From the NCBI GenBank assembly GCA_001655195.1, contig LPNY01000209.1, positions 1 through 64,000 of the forward strand: a DNA stretch of 64,000 nt. Direction: 5' to 3'. Shown piece by piece: positions 27,386 through 32,743 of the stretch. A program made the translations under genes and the position numbers. Every line of letters starts with the position of its first letter. Positions within the stretch are counted from its first letter, which is position 1. Origin of the DNA: Arcobacter sp. EP1. GTDB taxonomy: Bacteria > Campylobacterota > Campylobacteria > Campylobacterales > Arcobacteraceae. The notes beneath the pieces are model-generated. The model saw only the letters and a program-made list of their open reading frames with translations. It made no database searches and was not told where the DNA came from.

Positions 27386-27411
27386 AGGTTAAGGTTTTGG
27401 CCTTAATCTTT
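27384..27411. terminator. Bidirectional terminator between fldA and fur
   Basis: An 11-bp stem, AAAGGTTAAGG / CCTTAATCTTT (one G-U in one direction), lies between the convergent fldA and fur genes and reaches the fur stop codon. Confidence 0.7.
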
Positions 27412-27850
27412 AATCTTGACAATCTCCACATGTTCCATACAGTTGCATTGAGTGGCTTGTAATTTTAAATTTATTTTTCTTAGCAATTCGATCTTGGCGT
27501 TTTTCAATTTCATCATCTAAAAATTCAACAATCTTACCACATGAAGTACAAATTAGATGATCGTGATGTTCTTTTTGATTACTTTCATACTTTTTACCAT
27601 CTGCACCAAAAGTAATAGAAGTAATTAAATTAACCTCTTCTAGAAAACCTAAAGCACGGTAAACAGTTGCAATTCCTACATTAGATTCTGGGTGTTTTGT
27701 TTTAATCTCATTATAGACTTCTTCAGCACTTAAATGCCCATCAGCATTCATAAGAATCTTTAAGACAATTTCTCGTTGTTCAGTATATTTGAGACCTTTT
27801 TGTTTAACAATTTTCTTTAGTTCTTCAATTGTATCTTCGTTTGTTGACAT
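27410..27850 (-). CDS. fur: Ferric uptake regulator Fur
   Basis: A 146-residue Fur. The N-terminal winged helix includes GLKYTEQREIVLKIL and GIATVYRALGFLEE. The dimer/metal domain has EHHDHLICTSCGKIVEF with the HHDH and CTSC ligands, and the second zinc pair is CGDC at the C terminus. The segment ITSITFGADGKKYES and the GTCGDC ending resemble C. jejuni Fur much more than PerR. It is monocistronic, convergent with fldA, and its promoter shows no evident Fur box. It presumably reads the many palindromic boxes between 19.6 and 47 kb. Confidence 0.93.
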   Translation of the reverse strand: MSTNEDTIEELKKIVKQKGLKYTEQREIVLKILMNADGHLSAEEVYNEIKTKHPESNVGIATVYRALGFLEEVNLITSITFGADGKKYESNQKEHHDHLICTSCGKIVEFLDDEIEKRQDRIAKKNKFKITSHSMQLYGTCGDCQD

Positions 27851-27959: not shown

Positions 27960-28178
27960 CTAATTTTCGGCTGTTTGAGTTTTAACTTGAGTTTTTTTGG
28001 TAGGTTGGTAAAGCATATGATGCCATAAAGCAAAACCACAAAAGGCAACACCTGCACCAATATGTACTTTTTTAGCAATTTTATTTTTCATAAACATTGA
28101 GGTAACAACTGTTGCACCTAAGGTGGCAGTCATTCCAATTTTAGCGGCTTCTTTTTGTACTTCTAAATCAAGTGACAT
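27960..28178 (-). CDS. Small membrane protein of the ferrosome-like region
   Basis: A 72-residue protein with two hydrophobic segments (residues about 13-29, GMTATLGATVVTSMFM; and 38-53, VHIGAGVAFCGFALWHH), a His-His pair at the end of helix 2 and a polar Thr/Lys/Gln tail. GGAAAGAGAG precedes the ATG. The gene overlaps the upstream 39-residue gene by 11 bp, and both follow Fur boxes, so they form a small iron-regulated unit beside the P-type ATPase operon. A role in the same membrane system is inferred from position. Confidence 0.7.
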   Translation of the reverse strand: MSLDLEVQKEAAKIGMTATLGATVVTSMFMKNKIAKKVHIGAGVAFCGFALWHHMLYQPTKKTQVKTQTAEN

Positions 28179-28369: not shown

Positions 28370-30475
28370 CTACTTTACCTTTACGCCTTTAATGGAATTT
28401 AGTAACAATCCAATGGTTGTACCATTATGTAATACTGCTGTTACAATTGGTGAGAACAAACCAAAAGTTGCTCCTGCTAAAATAACTGAGTTAATACCAA
28501 CTGTAGCATTAAAATTAGAGTTAATTAAACTCATTGTGTTTTTTGCTAACTCTTTTGCTTCTACTACTGCTGCAATATCATCTTTTAGTAGGCTCACATC
28601 TGCTGTTGCTTTAGCAATATCCGCACCTCTACTCATAGAGATACCAACATGTGCAGAAATCAGGGCAGGTGCATCATTAATACCATCACCAACAAAAGCA
28701 ACTTTACGTCCCTCTTCCATCATCTCTTTAACAATACGGGCTTTATCTTTAGGCAATAGTTGTGCTTTGATTTCATCGATACCTAGTTCATTAGCAATCA
28801 TTTCTGCTTTCTTTTGAGTATCGCCAGTTAACATAACAATATTTTTCACCCCTAACTCTTTTAATCGAGCAATAGACTCTTTGGCATTATGGCGCAAGTC
28901 ATCCGCTAAACCAATAGTCCCTAATAGTTTCCCATCAAACCCAATATAGAGCAATGTTTTTCCATTATCAAGGGATTTATTTATTTTATCTTTATGCTGC
29001 GAAAAATCAATTTTTTCATCATCTTCTAAAAAATGCCTGCTTCCAATAACTACAGATTTTCCATCAACTTCAGTTTTCACACCATGAGCAACAATAAACT
29101 CAACCTCTTCGTGGTGCATATGCACAAAACCTTTTTGTTTTGCCGCTTTTACAACAGCTTCAGCAACAGGATGGAAATAGTGCTCTTCTGTAGAAGCTGT
29201 TAAATTAAGTACATCTTCTTCACTCCACTCTTCATCATATGACTCTACAGAGATAACTTCTAATTCACCAGAAGTTAACGTACCCGTTTTATCAAAAATA
29301 AAAGTATCTGCTGAATTCAAGGCTTCAATAGATTTTGCCCCTTTTATCATAACTCCTTGATGACCCGCTTTTGAAATCGTTGATTTAAACGCAACGGGAG
29401 TCGCAAGTTTTAAAGCACAGGAATAATCCGCTTGTAAAATAGAAGCAACCCGTTCAAAGTCTCGTTTGACCACATAAGATAAGCCAGCTAATCCAAGCGT
29501 AACTGGTACTAACTTATCAGCTAACTTTGTTGCTTTTAACTGTACTGATGATTTTTCATTTAACGAATTTTCAATATAGTGTTTGATACGTTGGGTTGCT
29601 GTATCTGCACCAACATGTTCCGCCCAAATTTTTAAACGTCCCTCTTCAATCACTGTTCCAGAAATAACTCTATCACCACGAGTTTTAGCAACAGGTTCAG
29701 CTTCACCTGTCATAGAGACTTGGTTAACACTCGCATTTCCATCCATGATGTGTCCATCCACAGGTATTGTACTTCCTGCACCAACAACAACAATATCGCC
29801 AATTTGAATCTCTTCAGTGTTAACTAGAACCTCAACAAGCTTTCCATCTTGCTCTTTTTCTATCCAAGCTTCTTTAACGTTGGGTTTTGATAACTCTTTA
29901 AGTAAATCATCACTTTTATGTACAGTAGTTTCTTCGATATATTCACCCAGTTCTAACATAGCATTTGTTGAGTTTGCTGCTAAATAATCTTTACGATAAA
30001 TAGAAATTCCAACAGCAGCACTCTCTAGTACTTTTGAGGTTAAACCCTCTTCAAAAAGCTCTTTTGTTCCATCAATTAGCATAGGAGCAGCAGCGGTTGT
30101 TGTTAATGTTGCTTTTAATAAATCATTTTGAATAAAACGCTCACTAACTAATGCTGAACTCGCCCGAACAATTCCAGAAATACTTGGTTCCTCATCACTC
30201 ACACATGATACACACACAGCTGCATCTTGACAGTTACTTAAAAGTTCATCTTTTGTTAAATTACCTAGTATTGATTCAATCTTAGCAGTGATATCTTCAC
30301 TAAATGTAAAAATAATACTTGATGCTTTTTTATTGATTCGTACACTGGTTACACATTCAATCTTTTCTAAATGCGTTTTTAAAATATTCACATCTAAAAA
30401 TTCATCTTTTAGTAACTCGTATTTATAACGAGCACGAAAAGGAGTTCCATGTACTTTTTTAAACAATTTGCTCAT
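28370..30475 (-). CDS. P1B-type metal-transporting ATPase, ferrosome FezB-like (P1B-6)
   Basis: A 701-residue P-type ATPase. The phosphorylation site is FDKTGTLTSG near residue 394, the actuator motif is TGEAEP, and the hinge is GDGINDAPAL near residue 597. The transmembrane metal motif is DYSCALKLATP near residue 349; an SCA motif instead of CPC/CPH/SPC is, to my knowledge, the mark of the P1B-6 group that includes FezB of ferrosomes. The N-terminal metal-binding-like domain has no CxxC; in its place stands GTPFRARYKY, an arginine motif. The next domain carries CQDAAVCVSCVSD, a cysteine-rich stretch. It is the last gene of a six-gene operon of membrane and iron-binding proteins. Iron transport into a vesicle is inferred from family and context. 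Confidence 0.85.
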   Translation of the reverse strand: MSKLFKKVHGTPFRARYKYELLKDEFLDVNILKTHLEKIECVTSVRINKKASSIIFTFSEDITAKIESILGNLTKDELLSNCQDAAVCVSCVSDEEPSISGIVRASSALVSERFIQNDLLKATLTTTAAAPMLIDGTKELFEEGLTSKVLESAAVGISIYRKDYLAANSTNAMLELGEYIEETTVHKSDDLLKELSKPNVKEAWIEKEQDGKLVEVLVNTEEIQIGDIVVVGAGSTIPVDGHIMDGNASVNQVSMTGEAEPVAKTRGDRVISGTVIEEGRLKIWAEHVGADTATQRIKHYIENSLNEKSSVQLKATKLADKLVPVTLGLAGLSYVVKRDFERVASILQADYSCALKLATPVAFKSTISKAGHQGVMIKGAKSIEALNSADTFIFDKTGTLTSGELEVISVESYDEEWSEEDVLNLTASTEEHYFHPVAEAVVKAAKQKGFVHMHHEEVEFIVAHGVKTEVDGKSVVIGSRHFLEDDEKIDFSQHKDKINKSLDNGKTLLYIGFDGKLLGTIGLADDLRHNAKESIARLKELGVKNIVMLTGDTQKKAEMIANELGIDEIKAQLLPKDKARIVKEMMEEGRKVAFVGDGINDAPALISAHVGISMSRGADIAKATADVSLLKDDIAAVVEAKELAKNTMSLINSNFNATVGINSVILAGATFGLFSPIVTAVLHNGTTIGLLLNSIKGVKVK

Positions 30476-30813
30476 TATGACTCTTGATTTGCTTCCATTT
30501 GCGCTCGAGCATCTTCATATCGTTCTTTTAACTCTTCCATTCCAGCTTGAAAAAGTTCAGTACCTTTTGATGCCGCCTTCATAAGTGTCTCTTGAGCACC
30601 TTTGTTCGTTAAAAGAAAGGTAACAGCTGCTCCAATTAAAGCACCTTTAACAAAATCACCATTATTAAATCCATTTTGCCCAGCATTTTGATTAGGGTTC
30701 ATTTGTTGTGACGGATTAACATTTTGATTAATATAAGGGTTATGATTCATATTAATGTTTTGTCCGTTTTGAACTCGACTGTTTTCAATATTCATATCGT
30801 ATTGGTTATTCAT
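30475..30813 (-). CDS. Asn/Gln-rich small protein with glycine-zipper membrane segment
   Basis: A 112-residue protein. The first ~50 residues are low in complexity and very rich in Asn, Gln, Met and Pro (NPSQQMNPNQNAGQNGFNNG). A short YtxH-like hydrophobic segment follows (FVKGALIGAAVTFLLTN, with small-residue spacing), then an amphipathic helix rich in Glu and Lys. It overlaps the ATPase gene by 1 bp and the previous gene by 8 bp. Such architecture suits a membrane-shaping or scaffold protein of an intracellular compartment; this is inference. Confidence 0.72.
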   Translation of the reverse strand: MNNQYDMNIENSRVQNGQNINMNHNPYINQNVNPSQQMNPNQNAGQNGFNNGDFVKGALIGAAVTFLLTNKGAQETLMKAASKGTELFQAGMEELKERYEDARAQMEANQES

Positions 30814-31177
30814 TATTTTCCTCTTCTAATAATACTTTATCTTCACATGAAAGAGCTTCATATTTTGCACTTAAGGTTTCATCGATAACTTCTAACGCAT
30901 AAATACCCGCCATACCAACAGAGGCTGCTGTTAATGCTTTAAAAAGACCACCTTTTTGTCCCAAGTAATTAGCAGTAGCAATTGCTGCACCTGTTGCAAT
31001 AGCACCTTGAGAAGTACGTTTTACGGTATCTTTAACTGCTTCATTTTGTGATATTTCTTCATCTTTTACACGCTTATAGTTGATTGTTCCAGAGACAATA
31101 GCACTAGCAACTGCTCCACTAACAATATGACCTAAAACATTTCGTGGTTCACCAGTATTGATTAAAGGTTGTTTCAT
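30806..31177 (-). CDS. Glycine/alanine-rich membrane protein of the ferrosome-like operon
   Basis: A 123-residue protein with three Gly/Ala-rich hydrophobic stretches (LGHIVSGAVASAIVSGTI; SQGAIATGAAIATANYLG; FKALTAASVGMAGIYALEV) separated by charged turns, and an acidic tail. The small-residue spacing resembles magnetosome MamC-like and ferrosome small membrane proteins. It overlaps both neighbouring genes by a few bases, so it is co-translated with them. The specific role is unknown. Confidence 0.7.
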   Translation of the reverse strand: MKQPLINTGEPRNVLGHIVSGAVASAIVSGTINYKRVKDEEISQNEAVKDTVKRTSQGAIATGAAIATANYLGQKGGLFKALTAASVGMAGIYALEVIDETLSAKYEALSCEDKVLLEEENNE

Positions 31178-31440
31178 TATTCTTCTTCTTTCTTACTTTC
31201 TATTACTTCAGCCTCTTGGGATGCAGTTTTCTCTTTTTTCTCTTTTATACACTCAGCAGTTGCACTTAACGTCTCTTTTACGTCAGTTACTGTGTCATTT
31301 GCTTTTTCTAATGAACAGTTTGCCAAATCTTTTGACTTATCAAAAAGTCCACCTGCCATCTCTTTTAACTTGTCACTTTTTTGAAATGCAACAACAGCTC
31401 CTGCTCCAACTGCTAATCCTAATACAAATGGTAATGCCAT
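31177..31440 (-). CDS. YtxH-like single-helix protein of the ferrosome-like operon
   Basis: An 87-residue protein. An N-terminal glycine-rich helix (LPFVLGLAVGAGAVVAFQ) is followed by a long charged amphipathic helix (about residues 22-75) and a Glu/Lys tail. This is the plan of YtxH-type membrane-anchored coiled proteins. It lies between the ferritin-like and the MamC-like genes with 3-bp and 1-bp junctions. An anchoring or shaping role at the compartment membrane is an inference. Confidence 0.7.
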   Translation of the reverse strand: MALPFVLGLAVGAGAVVAFQKSDKLKEMAGGLFDKSKDLANCSLEKANDTVTDVKETLSATAECIKEKKEKTASQEAEVIESKKEEE

Positions 31441-31443
31441 AAT

Positions 31444-32151
31444 TTACTCCTCGTTTTGATTTTCACTATTTTCGGTTTTTTTATTCATGTAACTATTTAA
31501 AAATGCAACGGATGCACTTCCAAACGCTGCACCACTCAACGTTGAAATATTTAGTTTTGAAAATATTTGGGTTAATTTATCTTGGTCAACATTTCCAGCC
31601 ATAATATCATCTAAAAGCATTTGATATTCACCAAACTTCTCCATAATATTCTCTTGGTTGAAGTCAAAACCTGCTTCATGAGTATTTTGTCCACTATAGT
31701 AGTTTGATACACAGCGTCTGAAAGCCGGCAAATGATTGTTAAAAGACGCTGCTTGAAGTTTAAACAACGTATCTCTTACATCATCCTCGGTGACATATTG
31801 CAAAAGATGATCATACATCGCTATGTTATTAATCTCACTTGCAACTCCTAATTCACAACACTCTACATAACTCTTAGGGACTTCTATTTTGTTTGCCCAA
31901 TCATTAATAGGAACCGGAACATTATACTTTTGAAGCAGTGGTATCAGTGCCGCATAATGTATCGCTTCAGCCTCCTTGATACTAACAAAAGGTTGCACAT
32001 ATCCAAAAGATTCAATAATCTTGCTATATGTTTCATAAGCTTTGAATTCATCATATACTGCAATTTGTAATACCTGATGTAAAATTGGCTGTTCACTTTG
32101 TTCATTAACTCTTTGAGTCACCAATATTTGCTCATTGTAATTCATTTCCAA
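31444..32151 (-). CDS. Ferritin-like DUF2202 protein with C-terminal hydrophobic segment
   Basis: About 235 residues. The N-terminal ~150 residues match the ferritin-like DUF2202 four-helix domain. Carboxylate and histidine ligands appear in DEFKAYETY (Glu near 35), KEAEAIHYAAL (Glu 62 and His 65, an ExxH pair), SEINNIAMYD and NNHLPAFRRC. The C terminus adds a small-residue hydrophobic stretch (TLSGAAFGSASVAFLNSY) and an Asn/Glu tail, which could dock the protein to a membrane. I chose the TTG at 32151 because AGGAGG lies nine bases before it; the ATG at 32145 is too far from that site. It lies in an operon with a FezB-like ATPase and may load or oxidise iron for the compartment. Confidence 0.82.
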   Translation of the reverse strand: MEMNYNEQILVTQRVNEQSEQPILHQVLQIAVYDEFKAYETYSKIIESFGYVQPFVSIKEAEAIHYAALIPLLQKYNVPVPINDWANKIEVPKSYVECCELGVASEINNIAMYDHLLQYVTEDDVRDTLFKLQAASFNNHLPAFRRCVSNYYSGQNTHEAGFDFNQENIMEKFGEYQMLLDDIMAGNVDQDKLTQIFSKLNISTLSGAAFGSASVAFLNSYMNKKTENSENQNEE

Positions 32152-32152
32152 T

Positions 32153-32467
32153 CTATACAACCTCCTTTGCTAAATTATTAATTAGTTGTGTTAGTTCATC
32201 TAAGTTTTCATGTTTTACCAAATCTTCCCACAATTGAGGTGCAAAAATTTTTGGGTCATACATAATTGTAACCGAGGCAATCATTTTTTTAATAGTAATA
32301 CTTTTAATTCCCTCAATACGTTGCTGTAAACTCTCAATATCTGCCAAACCAATACTTCCACTAGCCTCTTTTATTTTTGGACTAACACGAACACGTAAGC
32401 GTCCTGGAGTATGGGCAATAATAGTAAAATAGCTTGCGATTTTTATAATATCTTCTGTTGTAATCAA
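32153..32467 (-). CDS. Stand-alone degenerate HMA-like protein with arginine motif
   Basis: A 104-residue protein. After a short hydrophobic stretch (IIKIASYFTIIAH) comes HTPGRLRVRVSPK, an arginine-rich motif where a heavy-metal-associated domain would carry MxCxxC. The following alternation (IESLQQRIEGIKSITIKKMIASVTIMYDP) matches the babbab fold of HMA domains. The ATPase of the same operon has a similar arginine motif at its own N terminus. It is the first gene of the operon and starts with TTG preceded by AAAGGA at six bases. Ferrosome systems are known for such arginine-bearing domains; binding an anionic iron-phosphate phase is my inference. Confidence 0.78.
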   Translation of the reverse strand: MITTEDIIKIASYFTIIAHTPGRLRVRVSPKIKEASGSIGLADIESLQQRIEGIKSITIKKMIASVTIMYDPKIFAPQLWEDLVKHENLDELTQLINNLAKEVV

Positions 32468-32632
32468 CTATTGTCCTTTATATTTTGTATTTTTTCCGAC
32501 TTCTTCTTAATTCTAACTTATTCTAAATTCAGACTCATTATCAAAATTTTATTTTAGTTTTTGAATTTAAAAATAGTCTATTTAAAACTATAAGAATATG
32601 TTATATTGGCATTATAAAGGTTTTTTCTTTAG

Positions 32633-32743
32633 AATGATATTAATTATCACTATAATATTGACAAAATAGTGACATTGTTACTAAGCAACTCTTTATATAG
32701 CCTATATTATCATGTCAAAAATACATTGATAATAATTATCACT
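32633..32743. promoter_or_regulatory. Divergent Fur-box region between the ferrosome-like operon and feoAB
   Basis: AATGATATTAATTATCACT (32633-32651) and ATTGATAATAATTATCACT (32725-32743) lie in the 293-bp divergent spacer. The second is 17 bases before the feoA start, and the first is placed to serve the minus-strand operon. A common iron control of iron import and storage is inferred. Confidence 0.78.

Follow-up and report, generated by a model that had tools for sequence, protein, structure and literature searches.

The window analysed here, a 64,000-nucleotide stretch of contig LPNY01000209.1 from Arcobacter sp. EP1, carries a seven-gene operon on its minus strand, running from an HMA-like gene through fer, P87, a MamC-like gene, the YtxH-like P112 and the P1B-type ATPase FezB to a FezC-like cytochrome. 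The second gene, fer, encodes a divergent DUF2202 protein that ends in a glycine-rich hydrophobic segment, and is the focus of this work. The operon and its flanks comprise the following features.

32628 to 32742, no strand: two Fur-box-like sites, GATATTAATTATC near 32636 and GATAATAATTATC near 32728, in the gap that separates the operon from divergent feoA/feoB
32153 to 32467, minus strand: HMA-like protein, 104 aa, operon gene 1 (Pfam HMA_2 E 2.6e-5, below cut-off; syntenic in related clusters)
31444 to 32151, minus strand: Fer, DUF2202 ferritin-like protein, 235 aa (ORF calls, profile and phmmer matches, AlphaFold2 model, ligand alignment)
31177 to 31440, minus strand: P87, small YtxH-like protein (YtxH E 0.11) with an N-terminal glycine-rich hydrophobic segment, MALPFVLGLAVGAGAVVAF
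30806 to 31177, minus strand: MamC-like membrane protein (NCBIfam MamC E 8.1e-8; 32.5 bits, cut-off 100; syntenic)
30475 to 30813, minus strand: P112, YtxH-like, whose motif GDFVKGALIGAAVTFLLTN is the glycine zipper also present in the Fer tail (profile comparisons)
28370 to 30475, minus strand: FezB, heavy-metal P1B-type ATPase (TIGR01525, 500 bits; 48% identity to the Azospirillum fez-type ATPase)
27960 to 28178, minus strand: FezC-like small DUF4405-type putative b-cytochrome (DUF4405 E 0.013; syntenic)
27410 to 27850, minus strand: Fur-family regulator downstream of the operon (Pfam FUR E 1e-42)

The open frame of fer spans 31444 to 32151 or 32160 on the minus strand, with a TTG start at 32151 immediately after the HMA stop codon (32153); homologues start at the matching position with ATG, and residues are numbered here from the TTG. 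The protein consists of a ferritin domain (about residues 20-155), a linker and a C-terminal glycine-zipper module (about 170-225, with G186, G207 and G211). No signal-peptide-like N-terminus was seen in the Fer sequence, and its head is therefore expected on the cytosolic face of a membrane. Fur genes lie on both sides of the operon region, and the Fur-box-like sites show 15 of 19 matches to the palindromic consensus, the best score being reached in 12 of 1000 shuffles. Elsewhere in the same genome (contig C96, 18146-18569; L208 and L209), the best Ferritin (PF00210) match is split over two adjacent open frames, pointing to a frameshift, or to a sequencing error, in the ordinary ferritin of this bacterium.

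Ferrosome (fez) gene clusters, including fezABC of D. magneticus and the six-gene clusters of R. palustris and S. putrefaciens, were reportedly described by Grant et al. in 2022. The cluster names used here derive in part from citations in PMC11334425 and PMC12016538, and FezC, with its DUF4405 domain, is a heme b protein of ferrosomes (PMC11334425). As in the known clusters, a FezB-type P1B ATPase is accompanied in the window by a FezC/DUF4405-type cytochrome, the latter recognised by a weak match (E 0.013), and the HMA, MamC-like and YtxH-like partners recur in the Azospirillum cluster (L051). What sets the window operon apart is an extra DUF2202 gene between HMA and P87. The operon had previously been called ferrosome-like, a claim that profile matches and conserved gene order bear out and extend: the Fer operon is a variant form of ferrosome cluster. 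The literature searched, to which the primary ferrosome papers PMC10906721 and PMC10822667 do not belong, contains no mention of DUF2202 or MJ0754 and no description of such a cluster. A MamC relative is present in most fez clusters examined, and it is possible that ferrosome and magnetosome membrane proteins are linked through it. In many clusters outside the subgroup of the window, HMA is directly preceded upstream by the gene of another P1B-type ATPase with about 30% identity to FezB (L031, L032, L035, L038-L041, L168, L169, L171, L176, L179, L184 and L207). On a Methylotuvimicrobium plasmid (L056), a short DUF2202 gene directly precedes feoB and a further gene for a P-type ATPase, which ties the DUF2202 domain to iron transport in a separate way.

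First, what kind of protein is the Fer head? Alone, the window protein scores 16 bits against Pfam DUF2202 (PF09968), below the cut-off of 22; close orthologues score 27.9, 32.0 and 28.9 bits. Fer matches MJ0754 at E 1.3e-5 by phmmer, profile searches also recover that protein, and plasmid DUF2202 proteins outside fez clusters are 33-45% identical to Fer, so that the earlier assignment to the ferritin-like DUF2202 family is upheld. An AlphaFold2 model, built from a four-row alignment, returned a confident four-helix fold with pLDDT above 90 across most of residues 20-150, in agreement with the four-helix domain of the preliminary description. The best Foldseek matches are chains of MJ0754 (PDB 3q4n, 3q4r; E 4.8e-6), on which VIA-align places the model with Z 16.1-16.2, an rmsd of 2.0 A, 131 aligned residues and 29% identity. 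Bacterioferritins reach similar Z, with nigerythrin also among the closest folds (Z 16.0); since middling Z values are common between helical bundles, the DUF2202 assignment is carried by sequence identity and the ligand columns.

These columns comprise five positions, E35, E62xxH65, E106 and H140. All 18 jointly aligned sequences, six of them non-fez DUF2202 proteins, carry the five residues E35, E62, H65, E106 and H140, and the ExxH and H140 columns also align with MJ0754. From the conserved columns and the fold, rather than from coordinates, the ligands are predicted to cluster, in keeping with the ferritin-like domain with grouped Glu and His ligands that had been expected. The "intact ExxH pair" of the preliminary description holds for one motif, E62-H65, but not for helix 4, which offers H140 alone: all 55 distinct Arcobacteraceae Fer sequences have F or Y three residues before this histidine, and the canonical second ExxH is therefore missing. 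Fer thus departs from canonical di-iron ferritins and bacterioferritins, with their ExxH on helices 2 and 4 and Glu on helices 1 and 3; its single ExxH and lone histidine are the pattern of other DUF2202 proteins. Between helices 2 and 3, several free-standing members of that family have about 14 additional residues; Fer lacks this insert, and unlike them it adds a glycine-zipper tail and sits in a ferrosome operon. Encapsulated ferritin-like proteins (5n5e, 2e0z) likewise assign ferritin-like helices to an iron compartment, but the encapsulin compartment is a protein shell rather than a membrane and no zipper tail is known there; kinship of Fer to them was set aside, the profile match (E 0.03-0.07) being not significant.

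Could such a head be a rubrerythrin-like peroxidase or oxygen scavenger, shielding iron-rich membranes from Fenton chemistry? We consider this unlikely. Although one orthologue (L174) exceeds the Pfam Rubrerythrin cut-off (23.7 against 22.8 bits), with others matching below it, and nigerythrin is structurally close, Fer has neither a rubredoxin domain nor an ExxH glutamate on helix 4, and no rubredoxin-like gene was recognised in the operon. On a Rhizorhabdus plasmid (L054), a DUF2202 gene lies near catalase and a gene for a Dps-like protein, which would fit such a role; harder to reconcile with it are the Campylobacteraceae that keep the operon after the site has gone.

Second, Fer is closely tied to FezB. 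Both occur in 124 of 397 Campylobacterota genomes, with Fer alone in 6 and FezB alone in 11, and chance co-occurrence is rejected (Fisher p 4e-81). The six genomes with Fer only lack FezB and give weak DUF2202 matches, with E from 2.8e-8 to 6.8e-6; in the two of them with an inspected neighbourhood (L185, L186), the DUF2202 gene does not belong to a fez locus. Within the family of the window, the identical 64 of 104 genomes, according to lists compared by eye, hold Fer and FezB at 62% identity or more. The block from HMA to FezB keeps its order in twenty loci of the same family, most of them with a FezC match (none in the stretch examined at L031 and L035); the place of fer in the operon is fixed in the sampled clusters that hold it, and the operon is also conserved in a family of Betaproteobacteria, that of Pseudothauera. 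Viral contigs scanned for Fer relatives yielded none. The fez block including fer was also seen on Arcobacter plasmids of about 133 kb (L052, CP129951.1; and CP134847.1), the former with an integrase gene a few kilobases upstream of the block, and one genome (G017) carries two Fer-FezB pairs on separate contigs (C61, C132). A gammaproteobacterial Fer copy from a metagenome bin (L066) nests within Campylobacterota on the FezB tree, a placement that may reflect transfer or mis-binning.

Third, the C-terminal segment links Fer to other proteins of the ferrosome clusters. The tail, LNISTLSGAAFGSASVAFL, has a Kyte-Doolittle hydropathy of 1.30 over 19 residues (mean 1.61 over the homologues measured), a borderline value for a transmembrane helix, and the AlphaFold2 model gives no confidence in this segment; two of its glycines are invariant in Fer copies, and a GxxxG is conserved. 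The hydrophobic tail claimed earlier is thus recovered as a weakly hydrophobic segment, and with its conserved glycines it is consistent with the putative membrane anchor that had been proposed. A profile of Fer C-termini was searched against the 6930 ORFs of the window and loci L051-L137; besides Fer itself, nearly all top matches are fez genes, namely the C-termini of Pro/Met/Gly-rich proteins (Desulfarculaceae, Cereibacter, Rhodobacter) and YtxH-like proteins. In single comparisons, the Fer tail aligns with the tails of the Pro/Met-rich proteins at an hhalign E of 4.9e-6 over 53 ungapped columns, these tails match P112 at a profile-profile E of 3.9e-10, and Fer matches P112 at 1.5e-4. An arbitrary hydrophobic end is rejected by these profile-profile matches.

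The Pro/Met-rich protein lies just upstream of the MamC-like gene in the Vibrio, Hahella, Cereibacter, Rhodomicrobium, Rhodobacter and Desulfarculaceae clusters and, where no MamC-like gene was recognised, upstream of the genes preceding P112. These proteins (Vibrio L055, Cereibacter L053, Rhodobacter L063, Hahella L058, Desulfarculaceae L064) thus share with Fer both the C-terminal module and the operon position, but bear a low-complexity, probably disordered head in place of the ferritin-like one. The Azospirillum cluster (L051) has neither a ferritin-like nor a Pro/Met-rich head protein at the fer position. The tail is found in fez-linked copies and is absent from the sampled DUF2202 genes outside fez loci. 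As judged from this homology, the tail is a fez module that carries different heads. The linkage of fer to an iron ATPase, pointed out earlier, is supported by the operon. Since the module is common to other fez proteins, the membrane link would be general to fez clusters rather than special to Fer.

Fourth, the metal site and the tail have had different fates. All five ligands are kept in 54 of 55 distinct Arcobacteraceae Fer sequences, whereas the ExxH and H140 are gone from most sampled copies of Campylobacteraceae and from part of Helicobacteraceae (the family names of the surveyed Campylobacterota genomes were deduced). Three genomes hold a 146-aa Fer with neither tail nor site, and eight FezB-bearing genomes have no Fer. 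On a quick FezB tree with some long branches, the intact-site state changes at least 7 times among the Campylobacterota rows, and no shuffle clustered the intact and degenerate labels as strongly. Of eleven fez-linked tailed copies in the Pseudothauera family (Rhodocyclaceae), four are intact and seven degenerate, one apparently with a frameshift. In one Rhodocyclaceae-type cluster, otherwise complete, Fer is split over two frames (L246, 4350-5051), possibly a pseudogene. Both tail glycines persist in every copy with a recognised tail. In the order to which Rhodomicrobium belongs (deduced to be Rhizobiales), the DUF2202 genes sampled lie away from fez genes and are tailless, with ligands mostly kept. 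Pairwise identity in the ferritin domain averages 0.52 among intact copies and 0.25 among degenerate ones; for the tail the means are 0.37 and 0.34. Selection on the site thus appears, from these sequence comparisons, to have been relaxed in the degenerate lineages and selection on the tail not; that all fez-linked copies are enzymes is rejected by the ligand survey.

Alternatively, Fer may be a structural adaptor whose four-helix head oligomerises or holds other Fez proteins, the metal site being a relic kept in some lineages. This is rather unlikely in our estimation, but repeated decay of the ligands and loss of the gene while the operon stays would follow naturally from it, as would the Pro/Met-rich, probably disordered head that the same tail bears elsewhere, where the di-iron head is evidently dispensable. 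It accounts less well for the near-complete retention of the five ligands in Arcobacteraceae; there, because the ferritin domain of the intact set is also more conserved than the tail, selection on the site is indicated.

A third possibility, which takes up the iron oxidation or loading step suggested in the preliminary description, is that Fer is a dedicated ferroxidase that loads iron into the compartment and is needed for storage. The fold, the ferritin-like ligand set and the strict linkage to FezB within the family of the window accord with it, and ferroxidase activity of Fer is possible. As a requirement for storage, however, we find it quite improbable: Azospirillum, Vibrio, Rhodobacter and several Campylobacterota have fez clusters without Fer, the substrate of the ATPase is presumably Fe(II), and the head is predicted to lie on the cytosolic face, whereas the ferrosome mineral forms in the lumen. 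Of the proposal that Fer adds a step lacking in simple fez clusters, its absence from the Azospirillum cluster holds; an obligatory oxidation or loading step is not supported, given repeated site decay and gene loss with FezB kept. Iron oxidation or loading by Fer cannot be general and is one of several mechanisms.

The reading we favour, with slightly better than even confidence, is that Fer is a lineage-dependent ferrosome accessory, in which a cytosolic DUF2202 di-metal head is tethered to a membrane by a shared glycine zipper and, where intact, most likely carries out Fe(II) chemistry. The four-helix head would be held at a membrane, most likely that of the ferrosome, by the glycine-zipper module; in the family of the window the complete five-ligand site would most likely bind Fe(II) beside FezB, and the bound Fe(II) may then be oxidised by Fer or turned against peroxide. 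Across lineages, selection would retain the anchored module, with metal chemistry as a lineage-dependent accessory. Metal chemistry is argued for the family of the window because the site is conserved there, and it is regarded as an accessory because related bacteria dispense with the site. Against this reading stand the marginal hydropathy of the tail and the lack of the second helix-4 glutamate of canonical di-iron proteins. Homologues are retained without the site, and even Fer proteins with intact ligands could therefore act mainly in a non-enzymatic way.

Finally, ferritins and lipid-bounded ferrosomes are regarded as separate routes of iron storage, and a ferritin-like protein in ferrosome operons across much of a phylum would link the two. 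More broadly, we tentatively envisage, at a little under an even chance, a modular display on the ferrosome membrane, in which a shared glycine-zipper tag carries varied heads onto the organelle (a ferritin-like di-iron enzyme, a YtxH-like head, or a low-complexity one rich in Met and Pro); the ferritin-like enzyme would be the head used by Campylobacterota and Rhodocyclaceae, joining both known bacterial ways of storing iron, with its active site repeatedly lost. The tail common to ferrosome proteins is a candidate tag for targeting to this organelle. Lineages in which the metal site has decayed but the tail is retained provide a natural experiment separating the membrane role from iron chemistry, and both become testable in Fer by point mutants and tail swaps.
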